Shown piece by piece: positions 16,991 to 22,044 of a DNA stretch of 64,000 bases (its first letter is position 1; each line of letters starts with the position of its first letter). Location of the stretch: assembly GCA_012032285.1 (NCBI GenBank), contig JAAURJ010000005.1, positions 1-64,000 on the forward strand. The letters run 5' to 3'. Made by a program: the position numbers and the translations under genes. Under the pieces are notes generated by a model, which was given only the letters and a program-made list of their open reading frames with translations, was not told the origin of the DNA and ran no database searches. Origin of the DNA: Sphingomonadales bacterium (GTDB lineage Bacteria > Pseudomonadota > Alphaproteobacteria > Sphingomonadales > Sphingomonadaceae).

Positions 16991-17130
16991 GGTTAACCGC
17001 TCCAAAGCCTTTCATTAGGCTTTTGTCTATATATGTCCCACATATAGACGGGATAGAACAAGGCAAGAGCAGCCTATGGCTTTTACGCCATTTTATGATA
17101 GGCGCAGTATAGCAAAAGTGACAGGATGGC

Positions 17131-17568
17131 ATGATAATGACCGATATACCGCAGGACAGCCCCGACCGTCAGGATATGGCAGACGAAAAAGGCGCATTTG
17201 ATCCGCGGCTCACCCGCCGCCGTGCCTTGATGCTGGGCACTGTCGGTGCGGCGGCGGTTGTATCGGTGCGTCCTGCGCTTGCCCAGGCGGCGGGTTCGGT
17301 GCTCAATTGCGAAATTCCGGTTCCAGGCCCGCATGGAACAGGACAAAATATTGCCGCCGATGGCCGTCTGGTGACACCGGACACGCCGGGTTCCTTTGCC
17401 CCTACGGGACGAAAATTCACAGGCGAAGAGGTAAAGGCGGCGCTGCGTGGGCGCAGCCTGCCCGGCACTGGTTATGAAGAAAGCCGTGCCTATGTGAACT
17501 ATATCCGCCGCCTGCAACATGGGCAGAGCGGATTTACCTGCTATGCCTCACTACAAATGCCGCGTTGA
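17131..17568 (+). CDS. Small Tat-signal protein at the head of the HPr-rel cassette
   Basis: LTRRRALMLGTVGAAAVVSVRPALAQ Tat signal; short mature region with Cys near both ends (VLNCEIPVP ... GFTCYASLQMPR). Confidence 0.75.
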   Translation: MIMTDIPQDSPDRQDMADEKGAFDPRLTRRRALMLGTVGAAAVVSVRPALAQAAGSVLNCEIPVPGPHGTGQNIAADGRLVTPDTPGSFAPTGRKFTGEEVKAALRGRSLPGTGYEESRAYVNYIRRLQHGQSGFTCYASLQMPR

Positions 17569-17620
17569 GGCCAATTTACAGCAACATTGATTCTTAACGC
17601 GTTTTTGATAGGCGGGAGAT

Positions 17621-17926
17621 ATGACCGGCCTATTGCCATTTGAAACCAGATATCGCGCTGAAAAAGCGGCGGATATAATCATCCGTCCTTTGGATGTGAT
17701 GACTTTGGTATATCACCGGCGCAGCGGGATCACGCATATTGTGGCGCAGCCCGTGCCAGAGATATTACTGGCGATGGCAGGCAAGGTCATGAATGCTGCC
17801 GAATTGGCGGCAAAACTGGCGCAGGAATATGACATGGACGACAATGCGGATGTGCACGCGGTGCTGTCCGAAAGGTTGGAGGAACTGGCATCGCTTGGTC
17901 TGGTGGAGCCTGTCCATGCGCCATGA
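17621..17926 (+). CDS. PqqD-like peptide chaperone, HPr-rel-A type
   Basis: About 100-aa wHTH PqqD-like fold (MNAAELAAKLAQEYDMDDNADVHAVLSERLEELASLGLV); overlaps the kinase gene by 11 nt. Confidence 0.7.
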   Translation: MTGLLPFETRYRAEKAADIIIRPLDVMTLVYHRRSGITHIVAQPVPEILLAMAGKVMNAAELAAKLAQEYDMDDNADVHAVLSERLEELASLGLVEPVHAP

Positions 17927-18773
17927 ATTTCGCGTCCGCGTTGGCCCCGCCGCTTTTCGTATAGGCAGCGACTGGGCAGCGCCTGTCCGGCAGATGCGCG
18001 ATCTTTATGCCGATTATCCTATTGCCGACTTTACCGATTTCACCGTCCGGTTGGAGGCGGTCAGCCCGCTGCGCCGTTTCATCCGCCCGTCGGTGGCGAT
18101 CAACGGCGATTATATGCTTCCCGATGCTGCGCCGCTGCCCTTGGATCAGGGCCTGCTCGCGGCGGAGATGGGGATGAATTTGCAAATGGCGCTGGGATGG
18201 CGGCGGCAATTGATCCTGCACGCAAGCGCAGCAGAACGCGGCGGAAAAGCAATGATCATGACGGGCGCATCGGGATCGGGCAAATCAACGCTGTCGGCGA
18301 TGCTGGGACAGGCTGGCTGGCGATTTATGGGCGATGAATTTGCTCTGATTGATCCTGTCACCGGCGACGCGGTGCCTTATCCGCGTATGATCAGCCTGAA
18401 AAACCAAGCCATAGCCGCGATGCGCAGCGCTGCGCCCGATGCGCGTTTCGGCCCGTTAATGCATGACACGCCCAAAGGCGACATCCGCCATATGGTTCCA
18501 CCGGAAGAAGCGATTTCCCGAATGGACGAACGTGCAAAGCCGGCTTTGTTGCTGTTCCCTCGCTTTGGCTATGCCCCGGCGGTGCGCGAAATGGGGGCGG
18601 GAGAAGTGTTTATGCGCCTTACACAGGCGTCCACCAATTATGTTGCGCTGGGCGAGGCTGGCTTTACCGTGCTCACCCGCTTTGTGGAGCAGGTTCCTGC
18701 CCGCGCCATTGATTATCAAAGCGGCGAGGAAGCGATAGCGCTCGCCGAGCAGCTTTGGGCGGAGCTGGCATGA
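17916..18773 (+). CDS. HprK-related kinase A
   Basis: Walker A GASGSGKST, FMGDEFALID, HPr-kinase-like order without the N-terminal HprK domain. Confidence 0.78.
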   Translation: MRHEFRVRVGPAAFRIGSDWAAPVRQMRDLYADYPIADFTDFTVRLEAVSPLRRFIRPSVAINGDYMLPDAAPLPLDQGLLAAEMGMNLQMALGWRRQLILHASAAERGGKAMIMTGASGSGKSTLSAMLGQAGWRFMGDEFALIDPVTGDAVPYPRMISLKNQAIAAMRSAAPDARFGPLMHDTPKGDIRHMVPPEEAISRMDERAKPALLLFPRFGYAPAVREMGAGEVFMRLTQASTNYVALGEAGFTVLTRFVEQVPARAIDYQSGEEAIALAEQLWAELA

Positions 18774-19798
18774 GGGATGCGATGCCGCTTGTCACCGCGC
18801 TGCGCGATCCAGCCAGCGTGCGGGCGCTGGACGGCCACGGCTGGAGCGCCCTTATCAGCATCGCCCGCGCCGAGCAGCTTTTGGGTACGCTCGCCTATCA
18901 ACTTACAGACGCGGACCTGCCCCCCTATGCGGCAGCGGCGATGGCCGATGCGCGAATAAATACAGAATATCAACAACGCAGCGCCCTGTGGGAGGCCGAT
19001 TGCGCCCGCCGTGCGCTAAGCACCTATCCGGGGCGGGTGGCGCTGATGAAGGGGACCGCTTATGTTGCGGCGGGCTTAATCGCCGGGCAAGGGCGGCATA
19101 TTGGTGATCTTGACATCATGGTTGCTGCTGCGGAGCTGCCAGAGGTTGAGGGCCTGTTGACCGGAAAAGGTGGGTGGGAGTGGGTGAAGGAAGATGCCTA
19201 TGACGACGCCTATTACCGCGATCATATGCATGAGTTGCCGCCGCTGATCCACAAAGAGCGCGACCGGATGATCGATGTTCATCACACGATTTTGCCGATG
19301 ACGGCAAAGCCGCGGCCCGATGCGGCGGCGATGCTGGCCGATAGCGTTGCTGCCGACGGTATGGACGGAAATATGCGCATCTTTTCTCCCGAGGACATGG
19401 TCTGCCACTGTGCCGCGCATTTGATCGCTGATGGCGATTTGACCGGTGGCCTGCGCAATTTATGGGACTATCATTGTTTGACACGGGAATTTGCGGGAAA
19501 AAACGGGAAATTTTGGGAAAATCTGGAAATCCGGGCAAAGCGGCATCAATTATTACCCGCGGTGCAGAGGGCGGCGCGGCTTTCGGCGGCGTTGTTCGGC
19601 AGCGATATTCCGCAAAGCTGGGATAGATGGAACCGTCAGGACAAGCATTATATCCGCCGCATTATTGCCCGCGACGAATGGGGGCGGGGTACGCAAAAAT
19701 TCACCCGCTTCCTTTTCTATATCCGGTCCCACTGGCTGCGTATGCCCCCATTGATGCTGGCGCGGCATTTATGGATCAAGTGGCGCAAGGGGCATTGA
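18770..19798 (+). CDS. Nucleotidyltransferase-fold protein (NTP_transf_5-like)
   Basis: RHIGDLDIMV catalytic-type motif; ATGA overlap with the kinase gene. Confidence 0.72.
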   Translation: MRDAMPLVTALRDPASVRALDGHGWSALISIARAEQLLGTLAYQLTDADLPPYAAAAMADARINTEYQQRSALWEADCARRALSTYPGRVALMKGTAYVAAGLIAGQGRHIGDLDIMVAAAELPEVEGLLTGKGGWEWVKEDAYDDAYYRDHMHELPPLIHKERDRMIDVHHTILPMTAKPRPDAAAMLADSVAADGMDGNMRIFSPEDMVCHCAAHLIADGDLTGGLRNLWDYHCLTREFAGKNGKFWENLEIRAKRHQLLPAVQRAARLSAALFGSDIPQSWDRWNRQDKHYIRRIIARDEWGRGTQKFTRFLFYIRSHWLRMPPLMLARHLWIKWRKGH

Positions 19799-19827
19799 CG
19801 GATGCCCGCGCCGCGCCTATTCGCACA

Positions 19828-20018
19828 GCCGATGTCCGGTCCTGTGTAACAACGGGATAATAGGGAAGCCGGTGGGAGCATATAGCTTGAATCCGGGACT
19901 GTCCTCGCAACTGTGATCGGCGAGCGATGGCTTCATATTGCCACTGGAGCAATCCGGGAAGGCGAGGCCAAAGCATTGACCCGAAAGTCAGGAGACCTGC
20001 CGGCGCATCGTCGTTATC
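19828..20018 (+). ncRNA. Cobalamin riboswitch
   Basis: GGGAAGCCGGTG ... ATCCGGGACTGTCCTCGCAACTGTG ... AGTCAGGAGACCTGCC B12-box elements, just upstream of btuB. Confidence 0.92.
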
Positions 20019-20116
20019 CACGCGGTCGAGGGGTGCCGAGCGGAGGGGATTATGGCCCATGCCATAGCTTCTGTGACGACAGAATATGTCGTTAAACACA
20101 GGAGCAAGACTTTATA

Positions 20117-22044
20117 ATGGTAAAGATTATTTTGAAATGCAGCGCGGCCATCGCGGCGCTGGGATGTGCGCCGTCCAGCCTTTGGGCGCAAGATACAGAT
20201 GAAGGCTGCAATGCCAGCGAAGATTGCATAATCATTGCCGATCAAAAAAGGACCGATATTGTCGTCACGGCAACCGGCAGTTTCAGCTTGCCGGAAAATT
20301 CCGGTCAGACCATCAGCCTTCTTGATGACGGGATAATCGAGCAGCGGCAATCGGCGAGCGCTTCCGACCTGATCGACAGCCTACCGGGCGTTACGGTATC
20401 GCGCAATGGCGGTATCGGCAAAACCACCGCGCTGCGTATTCGCGGGGCAGAAGGGGACCAAACGCTGACGCTGATTGACGGGGTGCGGGCGAATGATCCG
20501 TCTTCGCCCGGCGGCGGGTTTGACTTTGGCAATTTGCTGATCGGCAATATCCAGCGCATCGAAGTGCTGCGCGGTCCCAATAGCGTCCATGGGGCAGTCA
20601 GGCGATTGGCGGTGTCGTCAATATCATTACCTCCGATATTACCCGTGAAGTGCGCACCCGCGCCGAATATGGCCGCCATGACCGCGTCACACTGGCCGGG
20701 CAAGGCGGAATAGACAGCGGCGGTTTTTCGGCCTCTCTGGGCGGGGGCTATTTTTCTGAAGACGGAATTTCTGCTTTTAAGGACGGTGGCGAGGCGGATG
20801 GATACCGGCAATATGCGGCCAATGGCAAAATCGGTTTGGACCTGCCCGGCGATGTTAAAATCGACCTGCGCGGCTATTATGCGCATAGCCGCACCGAACT
20901 GGATGGCTTCCCTCCGCCGTTTTTCAGCTTTGCCGATACAGGCGATTTTTCCACCGCACAGGAAATTTTCGGTTATGCGGGGGTGAAATTTCCTTTGTTC
21001 GGCTGGGTGTTGAAAAACCGTTTGGCCCTGACGGTCAGCGATATTAACCGCGACAATTATAGTGCAGCGGGGCAGGCCGAACCCGATTTCCTTGCCCGCG
21101 GACGAACCGAACGGGCCGAATATGTCGGCGATGCCGATTTGGGTCAGGGTTTGCGCAGCGTGTTCGGGCTGGACCATGAACGCTCGCGCTTTAATGATGG
21201 CTTCACCTTTGCCAAAACCCATGTTTCGAGCGGCTTTGCGCAGATCATCTGGGATATGGCCCCCCGCCTGACGCTTACCGGCGGCGCCCGTTTTGATCAG
21301 CACCGCGATTATGGCAGTCAAATGACCTTTAGCGCCAATGCGGCATGGCGGGCAAGTGCGGGAACCATATTCCGTTTATCCTATGGCGAAGGGTTTAAGG
21401 CCCCAACCTTGTTCCAATTAAACGGTAGCTTTGGCAATGCCAGATTAAAACCCGAACAGTCGCGCAGTTATGAGATCAGCGCCGAACAGGATTTGATCGG
21501 TGGCCGCCTGAAATTTGGTGTTGCCGGATTTTTGCGCGATAGCCGGGATCAGATCGACTTCATCTCCTGCTTTGGTGAGGCGACAGGCATTTGCACGGAT
21601 CGTCCCTTTGGCACCTATGACAATATCGACCGCAGCCGGTCACAGGGTTTGGAATTCAGCTTTATAGTCAATCCGGCGGAAAATTTCACATTTGATGCCA
21701 ATTACAGCCTGATCGATAGCAAGGACCGCAATAGCGGCCTTGCCTTGCTGCGCCGACCCAAACATGATGCGAATATCAACGCCGTTTGGCGGCCTGAAAA
21801 GCGGTTTAGCCTTGGTGCGTCACTGCAAATGACGGGCGATAGTTTTGATACCGATTTTCAAACATTCACTCGGACAAGGCTGGACGGCTATGTGCTGCTT
21901 GGCTTTCGGGCATCGTTTGACCTGACCCGTGATATTTCGCTTTATGGCCGTATTGATAATCTGGGCGATGAAAATTATGAAACGGTTAGCGGCTATGGCA
22001 ATTACCGCCGCACCGGTCATATCGGCATCAGGGCAAATTTTTGA
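20117..22044 (+). CDS. btuB: Vitamin B12 TonB-dependent receptor (frameshift near 20587)
   Basis: TonB box DIVVTATG, RIEVLRGPNSV; one added C gives PWGSQAIGGVVNIIT. Downstream of the riboswitch. Confidence 0.9.

Follow-up and report, generated by a model that had tools for sequence, protein, structure and literature searches.

An HprK-related kinase cassette of Sphingomonadales and its candidate substrate, a small Tat-signal protein

Overview

Four adjacent genes at 17131-19798, all on the forward strand of the window (the whole stretch of 64,000 nucleotides of a Sphingomonadales contig that was analysed here), probably make and modify one dedicated exported protein that serves an exopolysaccharide. 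The observed basis for this reading is the gene content of the cassette, the coupled presence and absence of its genes, including cases in which they are unlinked, an invariant Cys and Ser in the tail of the small protein, intact catalytic residues, and an association with polysaccharide genes. A gene set that databases name by resemblance alone is thereby given one predicted substrate, along with a predicted target residue and a predicted partner system. If the reading is true, phospho-serine tailoring, known from lasso peptides, also acts on secreted proteins, and the polysaccharides of a class common in environmental biofilms gain a protein component.

Gene content of the cassette

The open reading frames of the window place a small Tat-signal protein of 145 amino acids, the candidate dedicated substrate, at 17131..17568, a PqqD-like protein, presumed to be the peptide chaperone for this substrate, at 17621..17926, an HprK-related kinase A at 17916..18773, and a nucleotidyltransferase at 18770..19798. 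The sequence-only reading had described four tightly packed co-oriented genes with two overlaps, and both its coordinates and the overlaps (17916-17926 and 18770-18773) proved exact. The identities that it had assigned to the last three genes were likewise borne out: the PqqD-like protein scored 57.8 bits against PqqD_rel_X (TIGR04353, cut-off 35 bits), the kinase 243.5 bits against HprK_rel_A (TIGR04352, cut-off 200 bits), and the product of the fourth gene 155.4 bits against NTP_transf_5 (PF14907, gathering score 31.2 bits). Since the kinase and the PqqD-like protein pass both curated cut-offs, the cassette belongs to the HPr-rel-A system (TIGR04352/TIGR04353), the grouping named in the sequence-only reading, and these family names carry no substrate or function. 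The absence of a radical SAM gene also held among the identified flanking genes of the window. The same gene arrangement recurs in alpha- and gammaproteobacterial families, and therefore it is not due to chance. Literature searches on 'HPr-rel-A' and 'HprK-related kinase' found no mention of either in the papers searched. What is new beyond the HPr-rel-A families is the candidate for a dedicated Tat substrate, the tail motif and the exopolysaccharide link, part of which the NCBIfam curators may have seen.

Both enzymes have conserved catalytic residues. In the kinase, H102, K123 (in the Walker A motif), D140 and E141 were invariant in an alignment of 41 sequences. Its structure model (pLDDT 96.7) had PEP carboxykinases and HprK as the nearest solved folds, and HprK proteins were its best relatives in a sequence search of solved structures. 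In the nucleotidyltransferase, K94, G95, R109, D113, D115, D169 and H171 were invariant in 32 sequences, with the acidic residues intact; a sequence search of solved structures returned none clearly like this enzyme. Its gene is the sole PF14907 gene found in the genome.

Pairing of the small protein with the enzymes

The distribution of the genes was analysed in 201 genomes of the order, including 116 of the window's own family. Within the own family (n = 116), with the kinase scored as present above the TIGR04352 cut-off and the small protein at E values up to 1e-3, 32 genomes had both, 84 had neither and none was discordant (Fisher p ~3e-29; neither this statistic nor the E values allow for shared ancestry). 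This result favours the confinement to genomes with the other genes that the sequence-only reading had proposed to look for. Each of the searched genomes that have the small protein carries a single copy of it. The own genus is divided in the same manner, with four genomes having both the kinase and the small protein and three having neither, and in those three XrtA and the amidotransferase are absent too. The pairing also extends to genomes in which the genes are unlinked. Five genomes of one genus (g6) keep the PqqD-kinase-nucleotidyltransferase trio together with the Tat gene elsewhere in the genome, and one further genome (G054) has the PqqD and Tat genes in one place and the kinase and nucleotidyltransferase genes in another; the full set of four genes was still there each time. 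It had been proposed earlier that the small protein is a dedicated substrate, and this pairing, kept when the genes are unlinked, together with the invariant Cys and Ser of the tail, lends strong comparative support to that proposal. We consider it very likely that the Tat protein is the substrate of the cassette enzymes.

Conservation and tail motif of the small protein

No family in Pfam or NCBIfam matched the small protein. It has at least 80 relatives with 54-81% identity, the closest of which are found in Sphingorhabdus and other Sphingomonadaceae, and because of these relatives and its twin-arginine signal the first open reading frame is regarded as a real gene. The signal lies in the N-terminal part of the protein, at approximately residues 28-54 (TRRRALMLG...PALAQA). 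A twin-arginine, a hydrophobic stretch and an AxA-type cleavage site can be recognized by eye in TRRRALMLGTVGAAAVVSVRPALAQA, as in Tat substrates, and an export signal is therefore predicted. The pattern is retained in the relatives, with the consensus RR..L..GA..P..(V/I)TL. The structure model of the small protein (pLDDT 62) was too low in confidence for use.

When 43 sequences from the order were aligned, it was found that A51, C60, C137 and S140 are invariant. C60, the first invariant Cys, is located just past the signal (codon 17308..17310, forward strand), and C137 and S140 belong to the C-terminal motif T-C-Y-A-S-L (T136 to L141, 17536..17553, forward strand, with the S140 codon at 17548-17550), which is a candidate modification site. 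Beyond the own family, the gene adjoining PqqD is highly divergent; its ends alone are alignable and its middle is not. Twenty gammaproteobacterial relatives were aligned separately; their tail reads [ST]CW-x-S-[FLI], its Cys and Ser are invariant here too, and three Cys (C71, C93 and C171) were retained. The Cys and Ser of the tail [ST]-C-x-x-S are thus invariant in 63 sequences over the two alignments. Comparison of the profiles of the two groups aligned the signal region alone (probability 96.6, E 6e-10), and therefore the likeness of the tails represents a shared motif and not a shared domain.

Of the 30 top-ranked kinase loci in the order, 25 have [ST]CxxS no more than 45 residues from the end of the upstream protein and three more (L021, L022 and L025) have it further in; at the remaining two the small protein is elsewhere (L003, which is split, and L027, in which it is a few kb away). 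A motif-bearing Tat gene is accordingly present for all 30 of these loci, and for 28 it is directly upstream. Such a tail is rare: it occurred in 22 of 942 likely open reading frames, called by a simple procedure from the raw loci L061-L150, and the 22 include small proteins of this protein family. The conservation of the C-terminal Cys and Ser in the alignments favours a modified site, and the conserved Ser could instead serve folding or recognition. The motif is not universal, because many gammaproteobacterial loci carry instead a second type of twin-arginine-signal protein (type B), which mostly has C-[ST]-x-S-G just past the signal.

Several variations were observed among these proteins. 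The type B proteins have approximately 200 amino acids and mostly also a GYWKN/SPGxW stretch (L131, L133, L134, L139, L143, L145-L147 and L149). At one locus (L073, 9731-11320), the small Tat protein is encoded by a tandem pair of paralogous genes ahead of a single PqqD-kinase-nucleotidyltransferase set, and in one family (f5; L070-L073 and L099) several small Tat proteins have long Asp-rich inserts.

Association with exopolysaccharide genes

In gammaproteobacteria the cassette sits within a PEP-CTERM/XrtA-type exopolysaccharide cluster, in the order stp1-stp2-Tat-PqqD-kinase-nucleotidyltransferase-TIGR03108, where stp1 and stp2 are glycosyltransferases and TIGR03108 is an amidotransferase. 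Neither in the window nor elsewhere in its own family is the cassette linked to the polysaccharide cluster. Of the 91 kinase-positive genomes among the 201 sampled from the order, 86 had XrtA and 85 had the amidotransferase, and the exceptions were mostly fragmented assemblies. The converse fails, with 54 XrtA-positive genomes of the order having no cassette. In the sample of the phylum, XrtA is absent from many kinase-positive gammaproteobacteria, several of which retain the glycosyltransferases and the amidotransferase, and therefore the cassette is tied to the polysaccharide cluster and not to the exosortase. As judged from gene content, the cassette accompanies PEP-CTERM/XrtA-type exopolysaccharide genes as a satellite, and it is probable from this co-occurrence that the small protein has a polysaccharide role. 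The small protein differs from the proteins of the PEP-CTERM/exosortase (XrtA) system in having a Tat signal; its tail, GFTCYASLQMPR, has no helix and does not show the combination of PEP motif, membrane helix and basic tail of a PEP-CTERM protein.

Comparison with lasso peptide tailoring

According to published work (PMC9266682), lasso precursors are phosphorylated on their C-terminal Ser by the kinases PadeK, ThcoK and SyanK, and PsmN attaches hexoses to this phospho-Ser; lasso-peptide kinases are reported there to require His-Lys-Asp-Asp. The tailoring of lasso peptides such as paeninodin and pseudomycoidin resembles the cassette in that it has an HprK-like kinase with a catalytic His-Lys-Asp, a PqqD-family protein, a nucleotidyltransferase and a ribosomal precursor with a conserved Ser near its C-terminus. 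In contrast to a lasso precursor, the candidate substrate here is a Tat-signal protein of 120-270 amino acids in which the target Ser would be 1 to approximately 50 residues from the end. Neither a lasso cyclase of the AsnB type nor a B2 protease was found among the identified neighbours in the window, and the AsnB-type gene beside the gammaproteobacterial cassettes is TIGR03108, which scores below the lasso-cyclase cut-off. The kinases differ as well: the window kinase has H102, K123 and D140 followed by Glu141, so that its fourth residue is not the Asp of the lasso kinases. For the kinases encoded in lasso-like clusters of this order, the best NCBIfam match is TIGR04352, at ~42-45 bits, and they align with the His, Lys and Asp of the window kinase, with Asp opposite Glu141. 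Both the lasso kinase/PsmN precedent and the exopolysaccharide link are points absent from the sequence-only reading.

Two other kinds of gene sets were observed. Lasso-like sphingomonad clusters contain an HprK-like kinase, PqqD and sulfotransferases (L238, L239 and L243). A parallel set (L241, L247 and L248) joins an HprK-like kinase that has a PqqD-like N-terminus and an enzyme of PF14907 to one or two Gly-rich small proteins with Tat signals, whose pattern is RRxFLA.CGKYS.TVPP...LLSTSLSSPAIA.

Proposed mechanism and alternatives

In known pathways, the precursor peptide is bound by a protein of the PqqD family. The facts of the cassette, taken with the lasso precedent of a kinase acting on Ser and PsmN acting on phospho-Ser, led us to a reading in which a phospho-Ser receives a second group; we infer each chemical step, the order of the steps, the PqqD binding and the polysaccharide role. 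The PqqD-like protein would bind the precursor, probably via the Tat signal or leader region, and the HprK-related kinase would then phosphorylate S140 in the [ST]-C-x-x-S tail. On balance, we consider S140 slightly more likely than not to be the modification site. The nucleotidyltransferase-fold enzyme might then put a second group, a nucleotide or a sugar, on the phosphate, which is a more tentative step proposed by analogy with the lasso enzymes. The modified protein would be exported by Tat, and export following modification in the cytoplasm is a reasonable fit. The exported protein would act within the PEP-CTERM/XrtA-type exopolysaccharide or provide the point to which it is attached. A more ambitious version, which we regard as doubtful, would make this a pathway widespread in proteobacteria: a phosphate-linked nucleotide or sugar would be placed on a C-terminal Ser of a secretory protein in the cytoplasm, Tat would export the protein, and the protein would then anchor or prime a PEP-CTERM-type exopolysaccharide; the Tat route would be used because the modification must precede export.

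Alternatively, the tail Cys and not the Ser could be the functional residue, through a disulfide to C60 or an attachment made via its sulphur, with the kinase and the nucleotidyltransferase acting elsewhere on the small protein. C137 is as invariant as S140, C60 is invariant as well, and C71, C93 and C171 are kept in the gammaproteobacterial relatives. However, the Ser at Cys+3 is just as invariant, and the nearest precedent enzymes act on Ser, so that we consider this explanation improbable. We think it similarly improbable that the Tat protein is a mere co-secreted partner and that the two enzymes act on a sugar or another small molecule destined for the polysaccharide. The location of the gammaproteobacterial cassettes inside glycosyltransferase clusters would agree with such a role. 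In contrast, the peptide binding typical of PqqD-family proteins, the strictly one-to-one occurrence of the enzymes and the Tat protein, unlinked cases included, and the precursor-like conservation of the small protein, with fixed ends and a free middle, point to a protein substrate.

It is very improbable that the kinase is a cytosolic regulatory enzyme of the PTS type that acts on HPr or another regulator, with its neighbours being incidental. Its fold is that of the HprK/PEPCK superfamily, and phoR and pst genes adjoin the cassette in this clade. However, the kinase scores far under the cut-offs of the PTS HprK models (12.0 against 33.3 bits for PF07475 and 14.9 against 240 for TIGR00679). 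A separate short HprK gene (PF07475) lies elsewhere in the genome, at C17, which makes it unlikely that the PTS enzyme is the window kinase. Furthermore, the Tat-PqqD-kinase-nucleotidyltransferase set is kept in gammaproteobacteria despite quite different flanks.

Flanking genes and upstream element

The identified flanking genes are those of the phosphate regulon upstream of the cassette and of B12 uptake downstream. The phoR/pst neighbourhood was found in several alphaproteobacterial families. A functional linkage to phoR/pst was considered and rejected; because the gammaproteobacterial cassettes are flanked otherwise, the neighbourhood looks like inherited gene order.

A conserved element, TGTCCC-N6-RGAC (here TGTCCCACATATAGAC, 17034..17049, forward strand), precedes the small-protein gene and is a possible regulator site. 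Its looser form was found in 40 of 79 upstream regions of related small proteins and in none of 79 control windows. Joint control of the cassette and the polysaccharide operon through this element was considered. The genome has seven TGTCCC-N6-RGAC sites, one of which is upstream of the XrtA exopolysaccharide operon; in the relatives examined, the element was not found at the corresponding place before the polysaccharide operon. Just past the end of the cassette starts a cobalamin riboswitch (19820-20019). It is followed by a gene for a BtuB-like vitamin B12 receptor (20117-22044), which is divided between two frames that overlap (20117-20713 and 20650-22044), as a frameshift would produce.
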